64,000 nucleotides of DNA from Ectocarpus siliculosus (taxonomy: Eukaryota > Sar > Phaeophyceae > Ectocarpales > Ectocarpaceae): NCBI GenBank assembly GCA_000310025.1, contig FN649733.1:4066130-4130129 (forward strand). The letters run 5' to 3'. The translations under genes and the position numbers were made by a program. Below, piece after piece: positions 2,755 to 17,767 of the stretch (its first letter is position 1; every line of letters starts with the position of its first letter). The notes under the pieces are model-generated. The model was not told the origin of the DNA. It did not search any database and was given only the letters and a program-made list of their open reading frames with translations.

Positions 2755-3600
2755 AGGGGGGTGTACTCTCTCTCATGTTTTGGCAGCCTTACTTAGCGGT
2801 TAGACCGTTGACCACGCGTCCTCGACAGGACGGAGCATTGTTCCCACAGGTTCGATCACGGATGGCCAATCGTTCCTTCCTACGTTGCCAAAAAGGTCGC
2901 TCAAACATGTTTTCCCATCGGTATCACTTTCCGCTTTATTTTCCAACCCAGTTCCTATGCCCCAGTACAGCTACCGTCTTCTCCTGGCTATTTACATTCG
3001 TCAATTGTCTTTCTTTCTGTGCTTTTCCCTTCTACATTTTTTCCAGCTAGCTCAGTCATGTACATTTCCCTCTCCTTCTTGTACCACGGACATTCTGCAA
3101 GTACATCAAGATGGTCTTCGCCCTCGGAGCGGCAATCACACCTGGGTTTGTCGTCTTCATCGTCTACCTTCCTCAATCTTCGTCTACGTTCTCAAAGGCC
3201 AACATCCCCAGTCCTAGGTTTGACCTTCAGCTTTGTCTCTGCATCCATTGGCCCTCCATGTAGGTAATCTTTAAATATGTTCCTTCTTTGATATTCCGTA
3301 CACATCGAGACCCTCCGTGCCCTTGGTTTCTTTGGTTTGATCCCGTCCTTCTCTCTCGCCAAAGCAACAACAGATACCTTCTCCTTGAACCCCCTAGACC
3401 TCCCCTCTCCAGTGTATCACCTTTGTCAAGTTGGACCCCCTTCCATGCGTCATCTACAACATTAACTCCCTCCGTAGGTTGGTACACCAATTCTTCTTGT
3501 TTGTCCACTTCGCCTCCTAAGCCTTTCTCGGCAACCTCTCCTCTCCCATACCGTACATGCGGCACTGCCATCTAGGGGGCGATTTTACGGCTACACTGTA
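2755..3600 (-). pseudogene. Right copy of tandem unit; LINE-like ORF2 3' remnant
   Basis: The minus strand around 3176-2988 encodes a stretch with CDC, then EGEDHLDVLAECPWY, a C-x-C...H...C arrangement like the cysteine/histidine segment near the C-terminus of non-LTR retrotransposon ORF2 proteins. Upstream minus-strand frames (3571-3227) are open but carry no reverse transcriptase motif that I can recognise. It is probably a captured, decayed LINE-type tail duplicated inside the transposon. The family assignment rests on one short motif and is tentative. Confidence 0.35.
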
Positions 3601-7150: not shown

Positions 7151-8881
7151 ATGTGTGACGAAAACAAACGAGCGCATTTGGCACCACTGCAAGACCACGC
7201 TTCGAGTTCCTCGGGAGTTCGTCCAGGGCACGAGGTTCATGAAGAGGCGGCTGCCAGGGCCACGGCAGTGTCATCGTCATCAGCGCCGACCGCTCCAGCT
7301 CTGCCGCAACAGCCTTTGGTGGTGCCATCAGCGTCGACCGCCCCAGCTCTGCCACAACAGCCTTTGGTGGTGCCCCCCCCCCTCCCGCGTCCGTCTATCC
7401 TGCTCGATCCTTGCTTGGCGACCGGCCACGTCATCGCGTCACCGGCCCACGCGACATCGCCGTTGCCTCCGGATGATGCTAGCTTGCCTTTGTCTTCCAC
7501 GGGGGCGAGAGCGCGGCAGGAGGCTTTGGACGCCGCGGACGCCGCTGCAGCGGAGGCCGACACCATTCGCATTCAAGACAAGATGGACAAACTGAAGCCG
7601 GAACAACTTGATAGTGTCACACGCTTGCCCCTTGGTTCTGATCCCGATGAATTTGCTCGTTTCGCGTCTAGCTGCAAGGGCGTGGTCACCGAGATCCTCA
7701 ACAAAAGCGACGTCAAACGCAAGCAGACTTTCACTTCCTCCACCTGGGTCGCAGGATGGCTTCCGTTGTTGCGCAAACGTGTTCGTGCTGCTGTCGTTGA
7801 AGGTCAAACCACCAACCGTGCCACGCTGGAATTTCTTGATGCCACTTTCCAACAGGTAGAAAATCATCTGCGCAAGGAACCGGCCGGGCCCTCGACGTAC
7901 GCGTTCTTCATCCAGAAATTGGCGGCTGCCTGGGACACTCAAGACAAGAGCTCGGGGATTGATCGTCTTCGTAATTTTGGCGTGTCCACCGGCGAGACTT
8001 ACGGAGAATACATTCGTCGTTATAAGGCTCTGGCCATGACCGTCATGGTTTCTCACCACGCGTTCAAGCCTTCGGATGCGCAAGTGCAGATAGCTGTTCG
8101 AGACTCCATGTTGAAGCAGTTTCCCGTAGTGTCTGGACAGGTGTACAAGGATGAGCAGCTCTCCATGGAAGCCCCTTTTGGGCGACATGCTTCGTGCTTG
8201 GACGATATGTGGGATGTGTTGGACAAGCGTGCATTCGCGCACACGCCGGCGGTACATGGGGACGATTTTTTTTCGGTGTCTTCCACGAATGCTAGGAGTT
8301 CGTCTGCTGTTTCGCGTGCTGTAGCTTCTTCGGCGTTGCGTTCGTCGGTGACCCCTTCGTGGAGCCGAGGTTCTTCGGCTGCGGTGATGAGTGTTGACCC
8401 TCTGCCTAATGATGATCGGGACCCTTTTCTGTTGCACTACAGCGACTGGCCGTTGCAAGGACACTTTCAAGAGGTGTACAATGTCGCTTGTGAGATGGCT
8501 CTAACCAAGAATGATCCACCATTGTTCACCCCCTTGGTCTCAGCTGAAGACCGCCGCAACGCGCTTCGGCTGTACAAGGGCAAGTGCCTCAACTGCTTAG
8601 GCGAAGATCACTCCTTCAAATCCTGTACTCGTGGTTTCATTAACGCCACAGGCCTGCTTAACAATGACATCAAGCTCTGCATGGAAAAAGATCCCGCACT
8701 TTGGAGTCGGTGGAAAAAGCGCATGACCTCGTATAGACGCCCTACAGGACGCAACCCACCCCGTAATCACTCCTCCGGACGAGCCCGCCGCTCATTTGAC
8801 ACATCGGACATGAAACAGTCCTCACACACAGAATCCTCGTCGGAGACTTCCACTTCGGCTAAGAGGGGCTTGGAAGGGTAA
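7151..8881 (+). CDS. Retroelement gag-like part with CCHC knuckle
   Basis: This frame of about 576 codons opens the element. Residues 1-120 are Ala/Pro/Ser-rich and include a near-repeated PALPQQPLVV segment. Residues about 150-400 form a helical, charged region in the position of a capsid. A zinc knuckle CLNCLGEDHSFKSC (C-x2-C-x4-H-x4-C) lies near residue 480, followed by a basic, Arg/Ser-rich tail suited to RNA binding. The role is inferred from order and the knuckle. The true start could lie upstream. Confidence 0.8.
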   Translation: MCDENKRAHLAPLQDHASSSSGVRPGHEVHEEAAARATAVSSSSAPTAPALPQQPLVVPSASTAPALPQQPLVVPPPLPRPSILLDPCLATGHVIASPAHATSPLPPDDASLPLSSTGARARQEALDAADAAAAEADTIRIQDKMDKLKPEQLDSVTRLPLGSDPDEFARFASSCKGVVTEILNKSDVKRKQTFTSSTWVAGWLPLLRKRVRAAVVEGQTTNRATLEFLDATFQQVENHLRKEPAGPSTYAFFIQKLAAAWDTQDKSSGIDRLRNFGVSTGETYGEYIRRYKALAMTVMVSHHAFKPSDAQVQIAVRDSMLKQFPVVSGQVYKDEQLSMEAPFGRHASCLDDMWDVLDKRAFAHTPAVHGDDFFSVSSTNARSSSAVSRAVASSALRSSVTPSWSRGSSAAVMSVDPLPNDDRDPFLLHYSDWPLQGHFQEVYNVACEMALTKNDPPLFTPLVSAEDRRNALRLYKGKCLNCLGEDHSFKSCTRGFINATGLLNNDIKLCMEKDPALWSRWKKRMTSYRRPTGRNPPRNHSSGRARRSFDTSDMKQSSHTESSSETSTSAKRGLEG

Positions 8882-8937
8882 AGAAATGACTTGCCGATGG
8901 CGGAGTTCAGCCGGTACTACCGTCAACAGCAACCACC

Positions 8938-11286
8938 GTGCACCCTTTTGGAGTCTCCCAAGATGTTCGTGTACAGCCTACTTCTTTGGATACTCCCGAT
9001 GTCCCCAAATCACGTTTAGTTTCTCGGCCCGCCTCCTCGTCGCCCGCCTCATCGTCTGCTGGTATTGGACATGACAAACCCACTCCGGCACAACCTTTGT
9101 GGTGTGGGCGACAGGGAGGTAAGACGTCGAGCGGTTCACCCCTGCTCACCTCGTCGTCTCGGGTTACAGAAGGAACAAGAACCTCGTCTACTACTGTTCG
9201 CCAAGACTCTTCTGGTGTTGTCAGCCGGGCCTCTTCTCGGATAGCACACGAGCCTTCTTCTACATTCGCCGGGGATCCCGTCGATTCTCCTTCTCTTTCG
9301 CAGCTTTCGTTGTCTTCGACCGTCCGCTGCCCCCGTGTGACAGCACCTGATACGAATGCGTCTTCCTCTGCTGCCCACAACGTGCTGACTGCACCACTGC
9401 CATCGGGATCGGATGGTAGTGCCCACCATTCTGTGGAAGGTTCGGCTCCTTTGTCACGGGGGAGTAGTCCAGAGCGCCCTGCGTCCATTCACACACATCC
9501 GTCTGCCGCAGGAAAGACTTCTCCTAACGAACGGGTCTCTCATAGCCGTATGGCCTCTGCTAACATTGACCTCGCCGGAGCCGCCGCTCGTAGGCCGCCC
9601 TCCGGATCATGGACCGGAACGACTTCGCCCGCTCCTCCCTCGCTTTCTGGGTCCTCCCCGTCGGAGATGAGGACCCGTCCGCTTGGCCCACCCCCGCCCG
9701 TGCCTGGTGCCCGCTCTTTGCCCCTCCGCCCTGCACCGGCTCCGCCGTTTGATGACAAATTCGAGTACGCTTCGGATGACGTCCTCCTCTTCTGGAAACC
9801 TCCGTCTGTGTTCTCGCAATGGACTCCCTCGGCTTTTGACGTACTGGGGGTACGTTATTCATGTGGTGAGCAATTTATGATGTCTGAAAAAGCGAAGTTG
9901 TTTGGGGATATGACGTCGTATGACAAAATCATGGCTGCAACCGATCCTAAGACACGCAAGTACTTAGGTCGTAACGTACGTCCTTTTGACTATGCCGAAT
10001 GGGAGCGTCGACGAGAAGAGATCGTGCTTACGGGGTCGTATGCCAAATTCGCTCAGAACCACGACATGAAACAACATTTACTGGAGATGGGTACCCGCCT
10101 CCTTGCGGAAGCCAGCCCCTTTGATCGTGTTTGGGGTATCGGCATGTCTGCATGCTTTCCGGAGGCTAGCATTTCATCCAAGTGGGCGTCTAGCGGTAAA
10201 AACTTGTTGGGAAAAGCTTTGATGGAAGTTCGGCGCCTTTTGCGGGATCATCCCCTGTCTGGCGAAGCTCTCCCCGCCTCCACTTCCCCCACCCCCCCCA
10301 TTTCGCAGCCTCTTCCCCATGGCCGTAGACGCATCCACGAGGTTGCTACCGCGGCCGGTTCGTCGTCACGGGAGGACCGGGGTGAAGACCCAGCTTGTCT
10401 CCGTTTGGACGCTCCGGGGGACCATGCTCCTGGTGTTCATCTGGTGGCCTCGACCTCCGCTTGTGCAGACCAACCTCCTCTTCTGGAACACGGGCCCGAT
10501 CTGGTCGGCGGCACGCTCCTGTTGGACTCGGACTCTTACACCACCCGGGTTCTGCTGCATGGAGGACCTACAGCCACTTCTCAACTCGCGCGAGTGGCAC
10601 TGCTGGACTCTGGGTCTCCTGCGTCTTTTGTGTCCGACTCCGTGGTCACCGCCATGATCGCCGCTGGAGCCTTGACAGCTGGCAGCGTTCGTGTTTCGCC
10701 CTCTCGTCGTTGGGGTGGGTTTGGTGATGGACCCGCCCTTGTGACCACTCGGTCAGTTCGTCTCACCGTTAATTTTCTTCATGGAGCTCGAGCTACCGCT
10801 TCTTTGGCGGTCTGGGCCTGCGTTGTTCCAGATGCCGCCATGGGGCACGCCGTGCTTCTGGGTCGTGATAGCTGGATGCGGTTCAACTCTCGCGTGTTCA
10901 CCACCCTCCCCCACCCTGGACCGGACGGCCGGGTTATGGGCGAGCTCACGCTCTCTCCACGTTTCGCCGCTGGCGCTTGTGTTTACGCTACACACGACGA
11001 CGCTCCTGCCTCTTCGTTTCACCTAAAATATGCAGGGAGCTCGGGCATTTCCTTGGGACCGGAGCCTGCTCTGGTTGAGGTGGACCTCGTCCGTTCTTCT
11101 GGCATGCCTGCGCTGATCGGCGAATATCTCGTATCGTTCCGACCCGAAGTGGGTGCGCTTTCGTCCCCCGATGCCTTTGTTACCAATGGTCTCCAGCGTA
11201 TTCCCCTTGCAGGTTGTGCCGAATTGGAGCCGGGAGACGTTCTTGGAGTGTCCACTGCGCCGCTATTACGAGTGCCGGTACCCTGA
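8938..11286 (+). CDS. Retroelement linker, NADAR domain and aspartic protease part
   Basis: A Ser/Pro-rich stretch of about 270 residues precedes a NADAR/YbiA-type domain at about 9760-10250. Matching motifs in order are FSQW, then GEQFMMSEKAKLFGD, LGRNVRPFD, KFAQN and DRVWGIG, with a C-terminal LLGKALMEVRRLLRD helix. Characterised NADAR proteins hydrolyse N-glycosidic bonds, in riboflavin-pathway intermediates (YbiA) or ADP-ribosylated guanine. A retropepsin-like segment follows (10560-10890) with LLDSGS in the active-site position and LLGRDSWM as the late strand. The order gag-NADAR-protease is unusual: Ty3 elements normally go from gag directly to protease. Confidence 0.85.
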   Translation: MHPFGVSQDVRVQPTSLDTPDVPKSRLVSRPASSSPASSSAGIGHDKPTPAQPLWCGRQGGKTSSGSPLLTSSSRVTEGTRTSSTTVRQDSSGVVSRASSRIAHEPSSTFAGDPVDSPSLSQLSLSSTVRCPRVTAPDTNASSSAAHNVLTAPLPSGSDGSAHHSVEGSAPLSRGSSPERPASIHTHPSAAGKTSPNERVSHSRMASANIDLAGAAARRPPSGSWTGTTSPAPPSLSGSSPSEMRTRPLGPPPPVPGARSLPLRPAPAPPFDDKFEYASDDVLLFWKPPSVFSQWTPSAFDVLGVRYSCGEQFMMSEKAKLFGDMTSYDKIMAATDPKTRKYLGRNVRPFDYAEWERRREEIVLTGSYAKFAQNHDMKQHLLEMGTRLLAEASPFDRVWGIGMSACFPEASISSKWASSGKNLLGKALMEVRRLLRDHPLSGEALPASTSPTPPISQPLPHGRRRIHEVATAAGSSSREDRGEDPACLRLDAPGDHAPGVHLVASTSACADQPPLLEHGPDLVGGTLLLDSDSYTTRVLLHGGPTATSQLARVALLDSGSPASFVSDSVVTAMIAAGALTAGSVRVSPSRRWGGFGDGPALVTTRSVRLTVNFLHGARATASLAVWACVVPDAAMGHAVLLGRDSWMRFNSRVFTTLPHPGPDGRVMGELTLSPRFAAGACVYATHDDAPASSFHLKYAGSSGISLGPEPALVEVDLVRSSGMPALIGEYLVSFRPEVGALSSPDAFVTNGLQRIPLAGCAELEPGDVLGVSTAPLLRVPVP

Positions 11287-11399
11287 AGACGGCGCCATCT
11301 TCGATTCCTACCGGCCCCACGTCCTCCACATCACCACATCGGGTCAACGCCGTTGGCCCCAAGTCAGGGACTCGCCGCTCTCCGGACCCAGCCTCCGCC

Positions 11400-14300
11400 C
11401 CGCCTCCTCCGAAGCCGCCTCCACAAGAACTACTTGACCGTTTCTCCGAGGCCCAGCGCTCCAGCTTTCTGCGCTTGTGGGCTAGGCTGCCCGCACATAT
11501 GCATGACATCGCTTTCGATCTACACAACCCGGGATGGACGCCGGAGGCCATTGATCGCTTGGCCGACGCCCTTGTTGAGTATTCCGACGTGTTCTCTACT
11601 TCGAAAACCGATTTTGGTTCCTGCACCGTCATGCCATTCACTCTTTCTGTCCCCGCCGGGACGAAGCCCGTCGCCTTACGCCCGTATCGTATTAACCCGT
11701 TAATGCAGAAGAAAGTGGATGCCGTCTTGGACCAGTATTTGGCGGCAGGGCTCATTCAGCATTCCACTTCTCCCTGGGCTTCTCCTCTGGTCGTCATCCC
11801 CAAGAAGGACGGGTCGGTTCGAATCACCGTCAACTACAAGCGTCTCAACGCCCTGGTGGACTTGGATGGACAACCTCTCCCTCGGGTGGACGGTATCTTG
11901 GATTCTCTGTACACCGGGAAAGTGTTCTTCATCTTCGACCTCAACTCGGCCTTCCACCAGATCGTTTGTGACGAAGACACTGTCCCGCTCACCGCCTTTT
12001 GCACTCCCACGCAGTTGTTCGAATGGCTTCGGATGCCGCAAGGAGCCAACGCGAGCCCGTCTTGGTTCGTCAAGGTCATCCACAGAGTGGTGCACGGTCT
12101 GGAGCGTGTGCTTGCATATCTGGATGATGTTATCTGTTTCGATGAGGAACCTCTGGGACACGTGCTCAACATGATAGAGTTTTTCAAACGGCTGCGCCAG
12201 TACAACCTCAAGCTGTCTCCGGGGAAGGCTCGTGTCGGCGCCACCCATGCCAATTTCCTCGGTCACACCATCTCCCCGGCCGGTGTTAGCCCTGATGGCG
12301 TTAAGGTTCGGGCGCTCACGCACATGCCGCCGCCGACGAATGTTAAGCAGCTTAGGAGCCTTCTCGGTGGCCTCAGCTACTACCGGAAATTCCTTCAGAA
12401 TCTCGCCACCAAGGTGCGGCCTCTCAACTCTCTTCTCAAACAAGGCGTCCCCTTCAAGTACACCCCGGGCATGGTCAAGGTTGTCAAAACGTTGTTGAGC
12501 GAACTCGCGCGACCCCCGATTTTGGTCTTCCCGGATTGGGCTGCGGTCGAGGACAACAGCCGCCCTCTCCGTTTGTGCTCCGACGCGTGCATCGACGGCT
12601 TTGGAGCCTCCCTGGAACAGGAACAACTCGATGGCTCGGTAAGACCCATTGTGTACATCAGCCGCGCTACTCTTCCGGCGGAGCGGAACTGGACCGTTCT
12701 GGATCTGGAAGCTGGTGGCATTGTTTGGGCCATTAAGCGCCTTCGGGGCTATTTGTGGTCAACCAAGTTCATCATCTATTCAGATCACAAAGCCTTAGAG
12801 AGCATTGGCAAGGTTGGAGAACACAACGCCAGGGTACAACGATGGCTCGAATTCCTGTCCAACTTCACCTACACCCTGAAATATCGGAAAGGTTCGGCAA
12901 ACGGCAACGCGGATTTCCTTTCGCGGCTGCCTTTACCAGCACAAGACACGGACACAACCGGCCCCGATTGCATTGATGGTGTCGATCACGCTGGTGTCTT
13001 CCTCATTCGGGCTTGTGGACTCAACTACCACTCGTCGTCTACGCCGGAGGTCGGTTTGGGTGGGCTCCGCCCTCCCTGCTCGGCGGGAGTCTTTTCACCC
13101 CCAGCGCTACAGCCATCCGATTTTGGGGATTTTCGCCGTCATCACCCGCGCCGGCTGGATGCTCGATCGACCTCACCGATTGATTATCAAGATTTTCGGA
13201 GGTCTTCGGGAGTCTTCGTGGTCTCACATGTTTCCGCGTCTCCGGTGCCTGTTTCCTCTTTGGCTCCGGCTACGTCCCGCGGAATGTCTCCGGCCGCGTC
13301 TCTGGCGAATAGATATGTGCACGTCCTGTCTTCGCTTCCGGAGCGGGGACCGCTCATTTCTTCACGAACTCGGGCCAAGACCACCGCTGCTTCTGGAGGC
13401 ACCGTCACCGATCCCACCTATTTCGGACGCCAGCCGCGGGCTACCATCGTCCCTCGGGCATCGTCCACTGCCCGTCGTCCTAGCAGGTCCCGCTCGACAA
13501 ACAAGACCATCCGGACCGGCACGCGTCCCCTGCCGTCATCTGCGAAGCCAACGTCGGCGTTTTCGTCGACTGCCTCTGCGCCACCGGTGCCTTCGCCGGC
13601 ATCGGCGCGCGCTGCATCCTCGGTTTTGCCCTCTATCCAGGTTTCGCCTGGGACTTCGCCCCTCCCGATGCCTCCTCCTAGGGTGACACCGCTGTCTGCA
13701 ACTTCACCAGTCGTTGAGGCTCCTCGTTCTACAGCCTCTTCCGTGGGATCGCTTGACTCTGGGTTGGAGCCGACTGACTTGGACCCCTCACATTTGCGAG
13801 CTTGCGTTCAGAGCTTCGGCACTGTGGACTGGGCTAGGGAACAACAGCGGGAGAGCGAATGCGTGGTGGCTATGCGTTTTCTATCTCGTGGCTCTCCCTC
13901 CCCACCCCCTTCTGACTTGCTCACCCTTAGTGCCCCGCTCCGCTCCCCTCGGTTAGACGATGTCCTTGCGTTGGCGGCGAAAACCAGGCTGCACACGACC
14001 GATGGTAACGTCACCCTCCTCGTACATAAATCGGCGCCATCGCCGATCGGGCGCTCTGGCGGCAGGACCACTCGTCTACCGGATACTGGTGTGCCCCGTG
14101 TCTACGTGCCCATGCTGATGCGTCCGTGGGTCCTTCATGCCTGCCATACCGCCGCGTCCTTCCATCTTGGTGTTCATCGTACACAACGTCTGCTTGAGCG
14201 TTTCTACTGGTGGATTGGTCTGGATCGTTCCGTACGCTGGTGGCTTCGAGCGTGTTTGGTGTGTCAAGCTCGCAAGACTTCGCGTCAAACCGCTCGGTGG

Positions 14301-14840
14301 CCCGTCATCGCTATGCCATTGCCACAGGGGCCTGGTACGGTCGTCGGCGTCGACTTCTTCGGACCCCTGCCCGTGACTGCCAAGGGCAACTCCTACATTT
14401 TGTTGTTCACAGACCGTTTCAGCCGGAGAGCCGACATGTTCGCGGTTACAGCGGCGGAATTTACGGCGAAAGGGACGGCTCACATCTTCGTCAACCAGTA
14501 CATGACCAAGTGGGGATGTCCGACTACGTTATTGTCGGACAACGGACTGCATTTCTGCTCGAAGCTCTCCATGGCGATCTACGAGGTGATGAAAATCAAG
14601 AAAGTCACCACCAGCTCCTACCACCCGCAAACCAACGGCGGCACGGAACGCGTCAATCACACGATGGCTCAGATGCTTGCGGTAGTCGTCAACGAACAGC
14701 AAAACGATTGGGACGTACATCTCCCGCACGTTGAATTTGCCTACAACAATTCCGTGAACCAGTCGACTGGATGGGCGCCGAACGAGATCCATATCGGACG
14801 CATTCCGCGGCTTCCGCTTTCGGTCTTCAAATCCAACGGT
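11400..14840 (+). CDS. Retroelement reverse transcriptase, RNase H, integrase part
   Basis: RT spans about 11700-12330 with WASPLVVIPKKDG, FDLNSAFHQI, LRMPQGANASP and the catalytic YLDD at about 12117. RNase H follows at about 12560-12950 with LCSDAC, the acidic strand of the fold, and a YSDHKAL motif. A Ser/Pro/Thr-rich spacer of about 350 residues separates it from integrase. Integrase has its H-H-C-C zinc domain at about 14130-14270 (CLVCQARK as the cysteine pair) and a D-D-E core at about 14340-14780 (VDFFGP, LSDNG, GGTERVN). The spacer is long for the family and resembles the disordered linker before the NADAR domain. Confidence 0.93.
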
Positions 14841-14899
14841 AGGTGGTCATCAAAGCTTAGCCCGTGACCAACTCGAGTACTGCAACTTGGCTGTCGATC

Positions 14900-16014
14900 G
14901 TCAGCGCCGGGCCTACGACCTGGTCCGTGAGTACAACGCCCTGAAGATCTCGCGAGTCGAACGCCGTAATTCATCCCTGCTGGACGCCATCCACAAGCTC
15001 CCGCAATTTACTGTTGGCGGGTGGGCTTGGGTCTACAACACGGCTGCTACAATTCGACAGGGTGTGCGGAAGGACACGGATCAACAGGTGCTCAAGGCCA
15101 AATTCGCGCTTTCCTGGACGGGGCCTTACAAAGTTCTTGCGGTGGGTCCCGCTTCGGCCGACGCCACCCCAGATGGAAGCCCGTTGGCGCGTAAACTCCT
15201 CTACCTGGACCTGCCTTCTGATCTTTCCGGCCCAGCAGCTCGATGTCGCGTATCTGTCCTTCGTTGCAAGCCCTGTCGCAATCCATACGAGACGGACGAC
15301 CTGCCCCAATCTCTACCCGCTGAGCTTTCGCGTTATGTCCTGCACTCTTTCGGCGATAAATGTCCACCGTTTCACGTCACCGCAGATGATGTGTCGGTGC
15401 CTGTCGGGCGCCTCGAGGTCGACTACATTTCGGGACACCAATTGGTGCGGGGCCGTAGCGGCGTTCTCGCTGTCCTGTACCAGACGCATTGGCTAGGCCT
15501 GACTACTCCTTCTTGGGAACGGGAGTCCGACCTCGATCAATTCCGTCGACACATCCTCTTGTACTGGTCTCGAGAGGTCTGCCAAAGGAAGCAGGGTAAC
15601 CGCACGTATCGAGTGGCTCGGACACGCGCGGCACAACGGGAGCTAGCCCGGAATCGTGGCGAACGCTATTTGCCTCCTGGGGCTGACCTTGTGCTTCACG
15701 CGACTTGGCTCCGTCGCTTCAGCATTTCGCCCCTTCCAGTGGGAGCGCGGCTGTGGTACAAGGCCCGCGACGGATTATGGTGGACAGGACGTATTGGTGC
15801 TCATCAGGACGGCTCGTGCATCGTTCGATTTCTGGATGACCCGGGCCCCAGCGTTCTCCCTCTGCCTGCGCACCTCTACTCCACCGCCTTGGACGCCGTC
15901 TGTGGATCGTGGTGTTTAGAAAAACATCGCTCGCGCCCTTTGGGCGACGCCCGGGATCGCACTCCTCCCATTACTGACTCCTTACCGTCGGCTGTTCCCA
16001 ATATCTCTTCCTAG
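14900..16014 (+). CDS. Retroelement C-terminal part: chromodomain-like and Tudor-like
   Basis: After the integrase core comes a basic GPY-like region (FALSWTGPYKVL, about 15105). At about 15405-15570 is a chromodomain-like segment with VDYISGHQLVRG, THWLGL and PSWERESDL, matching the order of the aromatic strand, W-x-G and WE-x-x-x-L positions of chromoviral integrase tails. At about 15735-15880 is a second barrel-like segment (VGARLWYKARDGLWWTGRI, then VRFLDDPG) resembling Tudor/PWWP-type SH3 barrels. Both would serve targeting to modified chromatin, which is inference from chromoviruses. Confidence 0.65.
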
Positions 16015-16035
16015 CGTCGCCGTTTTAGGTTCGAG

Positions 16036-16130
16036 TTGGTCTATCTTGGATTTTGTTTGTTTGTTTGTTTGTTTGTTTGTTTGTTTGTTTGTTTGTTCGT
16101 TTGCTTGTTTTTTCTTTTTGTTTTTGTTTT
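16036..16130. repeat. TTTG microsatellite
   Basis: About 13 GTTT units in a row from near 16050, grading into T-rich sequence, directly after the retroelement coding part. Confidence 0.9.
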
Positions 16131-16140
16131 CTCCGTGTGG

Positions 16141-16330
16141 TTTGCCTCTGAACACTTGGAACAAGAGTTCCCCAAGTTTCGTCGGTGTTCTTTGCCTCTG
16201 AACACTTGGAAAAAGAGTTCCCCAAGTTTCGTCGGGGTTGTTTGCCTCTGCACACTTAAACAACGAGTTCCCCAAGTTTCGTCGGTATGTTCGCCTCTGA
16301 CCAGGCAAACACCGAGTTTCTCGTGTTTCC
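16141..16330. repeat. 50-bp tandem repeat, three units plus a decayed fourth
   Basis: Exact 50-bp spacing: units start at 16141, 16191 and 16241, each opening tttgcctctg and sharing gagttccccaagtttcgtcg. A fourth, degenerate unit starts at 16291. The repeats lie in the untranslated 3' part of the retroelement. Open frames across them are translation artefacts. Confidence 0.9.
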
Positions 16331-17310
16331 CTTGGTTCGCCTTTTGCCAACTCCTTTTTTTTTTTTTTAGCTCCACCGTGTCGCCGAAGTGTCATCTAGG
16401 CCTGTTACTCGGGCTTCCATCCCGTGGCGTCGTCTTCTCCCGTGGACATTCGTCGTCATCCACACTTCGTTCTACTTCGTCTCCGTCATCGCTACCTGCA
16501 GGCGACGCCTTCATCATCGTCGAGCCCTTGAGTCGTTGTGTTGTTGTGTGTATCTCTGCGACTTTTCTGTGTTGTTTGAGTCTTTCTGTGTTGTGCGTTG
16601 CCAGCGAGCCAGGGCAAGTTCGTCAGATCGCTTCTCAGACGTTGATCATTCATGCTTTGCATTCTTGGTTTTCTTTAGGTCTTGCCGTGGCCGCCTCTCT
16701 ATACGGTTTGAGTTCTCTGACACGCTGGAAATTGTTGTCAGTGTGTTCGCCTGTCATTCATTTCTCCTGCCCTTCTTTGACGCTTTCCTAGATTGGTTGC
16801 GTTGATATCTTCCCCTTTACGTCGCGTCCAGTATCAAAGGCCGTATTCGTTCGGAAATTTGCTTGGGTTTTGAGTTTTGTTGCCGTATTTTGGGGCTCTC
16901 TCGGGTAGTCGCCCTCATTCCTCCCATTGTCATACGCGCGGGTGCGCGTAAAAGAGTGGTGTGTGGCGTTTAGGTTTTGACTTTGTTTCTCTTGCCGTCG
17001 TCTGTTGCGGATAGCGTGCTGTGCAGCACTACATATTTTTCTTGGCCTTATCCCTTCATTGGTAGGAGCGTTGTCATTGAGATGTCGATGTGTTGTCTCG
17101 TGGCCGTTCGCATCCATCTTTCGTCTCAATGATGGTGTGGGGGTCGATTCGGGATGTTTCTACAACTCACCCTCCTTTTTGGATGTTTTGTGAAGAGTCA
17201 TGTCTTCGATTCATGAGCATCAATCGTCAGCTAAAATCTTCGTTGTAGCTTTTAGGATTTGAGCATTGATTTGAGTATAGAATCTGCATATATGATATTC
17301 AGGGTGGGCT

Positions 17311-17560
17311 AGTGTTAAGGAGTGTGGCTGCTAGCTTAAATAGGGTACATCTTATTGTTGATAGGATGTGGGTCGGTCCCAGGAGGTATACCCTTCAGAC
17401 ACCTACCCTCTTAGGATTTGTCTAGTCTGCGTACCCCCTGAGGTGAAGTTGGATCCCCACTTCACCTCAGACCCTTGCTGATCGTCTCTCAGCAATAACA
17501 AGCAACTTTCTCATCTCAACGTGATCGTGGACAAGCGTGTCAACGACAGAACCTACCTTC
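17311..17560 (+). repeat. Possible LTR or solo-LTR fragment
   Basis: The stretch begins tgttaaggagtgtgg, like many LTR 5' ends, and runs through a compact promoter-like region to a segment rich in caa/aac steps (cagcaataacaagcaac) before about 17560. No second copy was found in the window, and no target duplication is evident, so whether it belongs to the Ty3-type element is unknown. Confidence 0.3.
17438..17470. other. 12-bp perfect inverted repeat (hairpin)
   Basis: The arm ctgaggtgaagt (17438-17449) is followed by a 9-base spacer containing ggatcc and the exact reverse complement acttcacctcag (17459-17470). It sits inside the LTR-like segment, where it could act as an RNA hairpin; function is unknown. 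Confidence 0.85.
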
Positions 17561-17767
17561 ATCTATCTCTAGGAGCAAGCTACCGCCCACGGCTTCCCCT
17601 CCTTTAAATACTACTAATATAATAATACACCTACTACCTATTATTTTCTTGGGTCTTGGCAAAGAAGCACCGTCTATATGCATGCATGCATACCATTCGG
17701 AAATCAATCGTAGCTATACCGACCGCCACTCTTCTTTCCCTGTACTACGAAACACGACGATTGATTA

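Follow-up and report, generated by a model that had tools for sequence, protein, structure and literature searches.

The window, a stretch of 64,000 nucleotides of Ectocarpus siliculosus DNA (contig FN649733.1, positions 4,066,130 to 4,130,129 of the forward strand), holds a Ty3/Gypsy retrotransposon copy with a NADAR domain in its polyprotein. Its features are collected in Table 1, and all positions given here are those of the window. Other copies were taken from the same assembly (189.5 Mb, 492 contigs), ten of them fetched in two stretches each. A search for the EsV-1-7 repeat, typical of brown algae, gave 880 candidates in this assembly, at least 150 of them scored, and no match in 14 control genomes, which makes a brown-algal host likely. 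The copies C25, C158, C36, C15, C42 and C33 align from window position 7168 to 17608-17616, and further places in the assembly likewise begin at 7168. Searches with the LTR and the leader found no 5' LTR in the window, only the 3' LTR being matched, and the 3.2-kb leader of copy C36 had no match in the window. Compared with C36, the window copy is thus without the 5' LTR, the leader and the N-terminus of gag. Its 3' LTR is 98% identical to the LTR of C36 over 299 positions. The window gag ends at an earlier stop (8879-8881) following a small frameshift, and the window pol is spread over three frames. This copy is dead and decayed, being both 5'-truncated and frameshifted, and its NADAR part is still open despite the decay. 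Two sets of repeats were also seen: a 0.6-kb direct repeat upstream of the element (2077-2688 and 2917-3556, 74% identity), and three direct repeats with 50 bp spacing in the 3' part of the element (16126-16300), the latter also present in other copies.

Table 1. Features of the element copy in the window (positions within the window; E, E-value).
Feature	Position	Strand	Evidence
Ty3/Gypsy copy, 5'-truncated at 7168	7168..17608	+	alignment to six other copies
C-terminal part of gag, CCHC knuckle 8585-8626	7168..8881	+	open frame 7151-8881; motif
Site where other copies have the in-frame gag-pol UGA	8887..8889	+	window sequence; TGA-C of the copies
Pol N-terminal linker	8890..9789	+	pN/pS 0.69, seven copies
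NADAR (YbiA-type) domain	9790..10245	+	PF08719, 4.9e-44; active-site residues; pN/pS 0.19, seven copies
Protease region, DSGS 10606-10617	10561..11286	+	motif and place; pN/pS 0.11, seven copies
RT, RNase H, integrase, in the next frame	11079..14867	+	Pfam matches
Pol C-terminus, third frame; weak chromodomain-like stretch 15415-15570	14758..16014	+	PF00385, E 0.19
3' LTR (TGTTAAGG...CCTTTAAA), preceded by a purine-rich tract	17313..17608	+	LTR of copy C36

The window pol gave Pfam matches to PF00078 (4.4e-25), PF17917 (5.9e-28), PF17921 (6.5e-14) and PF00665 (1.2e-6), with RT, RNase H and H2C2 above the Pfam cut-offs and rve slightly under (29.2 of 32.6 bits). By the order of these matches RT and RNase H precede the integrase in Pol, which is the arrangement of Ty3/Gypsy elements. 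Reading for motifs located YLDD at 12117-12128 and SDNG at 14535-14546, which we take to be the RT and integrase motifs, in the same way as DSGS is taken to be that of the protease; the protease region was without a Pfam match and was assigned by motif and place. The PF00385 match at the end of Pol is under the cut-off, as are those in the C-termini of copies C36, C23, C57 and C46 (E 0.011-0.16). A Tudor-like stretch (LWYKARDGLWWTGRI) was noticed by eye following the chromodomain-like one, within the same part of Pol, and has no Pfam match.

The match to PF08719 (NADAR) comprises residues 301-452 of the open frame 8890-11286 (+) and covers positions 2-163 of the 163 positions of the profile, with 150.9 bits against a cut-off of 35.1, which places the domain in the NADAR superfamily. 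In PHROGs the domain matches phrog_1017 (5.1e-44), and 8bau_A ('NADAR domain-containing protein', E 1.4e-16) is the best relative with a solved structure. The original prediction had named five NADAR motifs, which are all present in this frame and at the place it gave, and the similarity it hoped for from a profile search was found with the E-value of Table 1. It was also right in seeing a NADAR captured by a Ty3-type element, with the gag zinc knuckle upstream and protease, RT, RNase H and integrase downstream. Its placing of the domain between the gag-like part and the protease is correct as to order; relative to intact copies, the domain is located after the gag stop and therefore belongs to Pol. 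The presence of a NADAR inside a Ty3/Gypsy polyprotein is confirmed as real.

For the active site, 37 NADARs were extracted and 35 used, the broken ones of C89 and C46 being dropped. These sequences represent six subfamilies and come from high-scoring places, not from a random sample. Residues were mapped by alignment to 8bau, the chain numbers of which are two ahead of the numbering in PMC11543638, and the roles of the residues are those given in the accessible part of that paper; from its residue numbering, 8bau is taken to be the Phytophthora nicotianae NADAR. Equivalents of E43, R79, W89, R93, E125, D130 and W133 (Phytophthora enzyme numbering) occur in 35 of 35 sequences, and those of K50 and K75 in 34 of 35. 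With the Glu of the distal ribose (E43) and the Lys of the phosphate (K50), the element NADARs fall in the YbiA subfamily, and the class is YbiA-type because the E125 position carries Glu, not Asp or His. Y84 is replaced by Phe in all 35, a conservative change of the contact, and the adenine-side ribose is held by D86, whose equivalent the element NADARs have lost; therefore the substrate may differ from ADP-ribose. When the window domain is aligned with 20 relatives from bacteria and viruses, no variation is seen at the equivalents of E43, K50, K75, R79, W89, D130 and W133, and almost none at that of E125; the equivalent of R93 is listed in neither group. The predicted active site is kept almost whole.

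PF08719 gave 230 candidates in this genome, and 150 places were scored (i.e. at least 150), of which 129 are free of stops over the match, by manual count. With the window RT as query, 150 places were scored of 441 candidates, at 50-100% identity. A NADAR lies within 8 kb upstream and on the same strand at 122 of the 150 scored RT places, the distance between NADAR and RT being 1447-1769 bp in 118 of those 122. A one-off insertion, which other copies lacking the domain would have indicated in the original prediction, was rejected on these counts. The NADAR is a trait of the lineage, at a nearly fixed place over six subfamilies.

Twenty-eight of the 150 scored NADAR places are without an RT among the RT matches listed, and 28 of the RT places are without a listed NADAR. 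Sixteen of the latter were examined; six have a NADAR or a fragment of one and ten do not. At those ten places, the same 1.1 kb also had no similarity to gag or the Pol N-terminus (family A and C queries, E<=1e-3), and they therefore look truncated or rearranged and not like losses of the NADAR only. One of these ten (L104, G000:C26:254093-254689) has an RT 56% identical to that of the window, in a frame of 1802 amino acids, and the expected 1.1 kb contains nothing similar to Pol or NADAR; it is possibly a NADAR-free sister element or a rearranged copy. Very long frames of 10,887 and 6,365 amino acids surround the NADAR places G000:C3:3913787 and G000:C489:435177; they may reflect stretches of N taken for open frame, which occurred elsewhere in the fetched sequence.

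An LTR pair was found in nine of the ten fetched copies, none being seen in C15, and the length from LTR to LTR in these nine is 13.1-14.1 kb. The two LTRs are 100% identical in C36, C23 and C89, 99.3-99.7% in C25, C158, C42 and C33, 98% in C46 and 85% in C57. All five insertion sites printed show target-site duplications of 4 bp, as read by eye. The NADAR is intact in C36 and C23, both with identical LTRs, and damaged in four of the ten long-fetched copies (C89, C46, C33 and C57). The C89 copy (L025, G000:C89:160001-170000) has identical LTRs of 269 bp, and the middle stretch of its NADAR is out of frame, so that a young copy can be without a working domain.

In copy C36 the gag frame comprises 1286 amino acids from the methionine of MSSGY, and Pol continues in the same frame after the stop. 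Gag and pol form one frame split by UGA followed by C in six of six copies checked (L013, L011, L017, L021, L025 and L027), which belong to families A, B and C. Copy C57, of family F, lacks this alignment of the gag and pol frames. Where a UGA divides the shared frame, the NADAR would come from read-through, and the gag-pol junction (8879-8892 in the window) makes stop-codon read-through at the gag UGA likely.

Selection was measured by plain Nei-Gojobori counting of pN/pS, not by a codon model. Within families the NADAR has a pN/pS of 0.15 (A), 0.19 (B), 0.18 (C) and 0.10 (D, one pair), while the values of 1.01 for family E (pS only 0.006) and 0.51 for family F (three pairs) are based on very few differences. 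Between families pS is 0.71-0.86, i.e. saturated or nearly so, and the amino-acid identity is 55-80%. The domains of family A were compared using seven copies (six for RT and the N part of gag). Here the NADAR (0.19) takes its place with the protease region (0.11), RT (0.12), integrase (0.16) and RNase H (0.21), followed by the C part of gag (0.23), the Pol C-terminus (0.33) and the N part of gag (0.38); the linkers have 0.27 after the NADAR, 0.69 before it and 1.02 before the integrase. Copies decay after insertion, and for the active lineage the values therefore probably set an upper limit. The NADAR is under purifying selection of an enzyme-like kind.

A NADAR tree, as the original prediction had proposed, was built of 81 rows, namely 13 element, 67 bacterial or viral and one oomycete sequence, the last being the one eukaryotic NADAR in it from outside the elements; five of 72 loci had been left out because they were short or broken. 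In this tree the element NADARs group as a single clade (support 99/99) among bacterial and phage relatives. Together with proteins of bacteria and phages, the clade is nested in a starred group that does not include the oomycete protein; the position of the latter is unsure, since it sits on a long branch, as several viral proteins do. For the twelve best relatives from outside the elements, identity to an element copy is 48-56%. 8bau and E. coli YbiA (PDB 2b3w) share family and active site with the element NADARs, whereas 8bau is 31-42% identical to element copies among the 150 matches listed and stands outside the element clade on a long branch. The accessible part of PMC12477816 reports almost only bacterial hits for the Ectocarpus element NADAR, and our tree agrees. 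The best explanation of these relationships is a long-established lineage in which the N-terminal part of Pol would once have acquired a YbiA-type NADAR gene from a bacterium or phage. A viral contig of very large size (L081, IMG/VR, 528,957 bases) was also seen to carry a NADAR, 44% identical to that of the window.

The oomycete protein was also used as a query on the genome; it gave 178 candidates, at least 150 of them scored, and the top-scoring places were already in the Pfam listing and, where the sequence is known, belong to family B. No stand-alone host NADAR was identified among the places listed with this query, nor in the two of the 28 NADAR places without a listed RT that were read, which are of family E (L004) and family A (L098).

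The original prediction knew of no described retroelement with such a cargo, which does not hold. PMC12477816 (2025), as far as its text was accessible, reports a YbiA-type NADAR at the Pol N-terminus in one of four Ectocarpus Gypsy lineages, as well as NADARs in Tx1 LINEs of the Pacific oyster. As the architecture is already in print, it is not a discovery. The Gypsy-12_Ec32-type lineage described there is likewise a brown-algal Ty3/Gypsy with the NADAR at the Pol N-terminus and bacterial proteins as nearest relatives; it is given a putative chromodomain after the integrase, where we find the chromodomain-like stretch under the cut-off (E 0.011-0.19 over the copies). By comparison with the accessible description only, no difference from that NADAR lineage was found, and the present element probably belongs to that very lineage. 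The Tx1 LINE of Crassostrea gigas, compared by the same kind of description, shares a NADAR borne by a retrotransposon but is a non-LTR element having the NADAR in ORF1, where the domain is called divergent. Other reports of NADARs in transposable elements were not found in the literature covered, i.e. without preprints and most subscription papers. The words 'readthrough' and 'stop codon' are absent from the main text of PMC12477816. Beyond the accessible content of that paper, the present work adds the purifying selection, the catalytic set in six subfamilies and the UGA between gag and the NADAR-bearing pol, and with these the element becomes a case open to testing and no longer a mere curiosity.

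NADARs can undo the ADP-ribosylation of guanine in DNA (accessible part of PMC11543638). On RNA, no other hydrolase family was found able to remove ADP-ribose from guanosine, an activity in which E. coli YbiA was weaker than the E. coli C7 NADAR (PMC11833690). On this background we tentatively favour the reading that the element NADAR is a packaged hydrolase removing ADP-ribose from guanosine in the RNA or cDNA of the element. The domain would be produced only upon ribosomal read-through of the gag UGA, and would thereby enter the particle in step with Pol. In the particle or at reverse transcription it would act as an N-glycosidase on ADP-ribosylated guanosine of the element RNA or cDNA; an adduct left in place would stall RT or mark the molecule, and the eraser would keep the template readable. 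The position in Gag-Pol fits such a packaged eraser, and the packaging with the particle put forward in the original prediction is consistent, as to position, with a NADAR lying in Pol after the gag stop. The active site and the selection suit an enzyme, and the undoing of host ADP-ribosylation put forward there may be its role.

As to enzymes that could write the mark, DarT gave no match at E<=1 in a profile, six-frame search of the genome, where introns can hide genes, and it is absent from the Pfam matches of four window frames. A toxin-antitoxin pairing of DarT and NADAR was rejected on these two results. The genome gave four short matches to PARP and one to the macrodomain. Human PARP10 writes marks on uracil, which the NADARs tested did not remove (PMC13036486). 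Since there is no DarT match and there are only traces of PARP, we hold the reading of a nucleic-acid eraser no more firmly than tentatively. The stronger proposal, an active guanosine-ADP-ribose eraser packaged to defeat an algal ADP-ribosyltransferase that would mark retroelement RNA or cDNA, a eukaryotic arms race, we regard as doubtful. Retroelements persisting with an ADP-ribose eraser would imply restriction by nucleic-acid ADP-ribosylation.

The domain could instead act on small molecules in the cell and not on the nucleic acid of the element, cleaving N-glycosidic bonds in signals derived from NAD or ADP-ribose or in intermediates of the riboflavin pathway. Such roles of NADARs have been described or proposed (PMC11125620, PMC9503650) and would go with the adenine-side ribose contact (D86) not being kept. 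However, the fusion inside Gag-Pol favours a function in the particle or on nucleic acid, and the polyprotein NADARs of eukaryotic RNA viruses have been argued mainly to target macromolecular ADP-ribosylation (PMC9503650), which leaves a small-molecule role rather unlikely.

We give a lower probability to a binding function, in which the domain would recognise ADP-ribose or modified nucleic acid and bring particle or integrase to chromatin that is ADP-ribosylated, or would simply bind RNA, with catalysis being secondary. The weak chromodomain-like stretch at the end of the same Pol, together with the putative chromodomains that the accessible part of PMC12477816 gives for three of the four Gypsy lineages of Ectocarpus, makes chromatin targeting plausible. 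But the catalytic Glu would be dispensable in a domain that only reads the mark, and it is present at the E125 position in every sequence used; NADAR and integrase are at opposite ends of Pol.

The authors of PMC12477816 state the possibility that the enzyme acts in processing the RNA intermediate of transposition, a reading on which it would have no part in counter-defence. The accessible text names no specific step, though, and ADP-ribosylated phosphate ends of RNA are not acted on by NADARs (PMC11833690), so that we consider such RNA processing improbable. That the domain is a passenger without function, as the decayed window copy and the four damaged NADARs could suggest, is very improbable, because six subfamilies share 55-80% of their residues and the catalytic set in spite of saturated or nearly saturated synonymous sites, and the simple counts in families A-D (pN/pS 0.10-0.19) point to dN/dS below 1.

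A comparable cargo for the packaged eraser favoured here is the AlkB-type m6A demethylase of an orchid Ty3/Gypsy element, as given in the accessible part of PMC9289625. It is likewise a captured eraser of a nucleic-acid modification, and its activity was demonstrated in vitro; it differs in being a separate extra ORF, similar to plant demethylases, and in its chemistry. According to the same text, LTR elements of Citrus carry a YgdH domain, which is otherwise found in LONELY GUY proteins. SLOG/LOG domains are counted within the same NAD-ADP-ribose network as NADARs (PMC9503650), and by analogy the Citrus YgdH may be a second capture of this kind.
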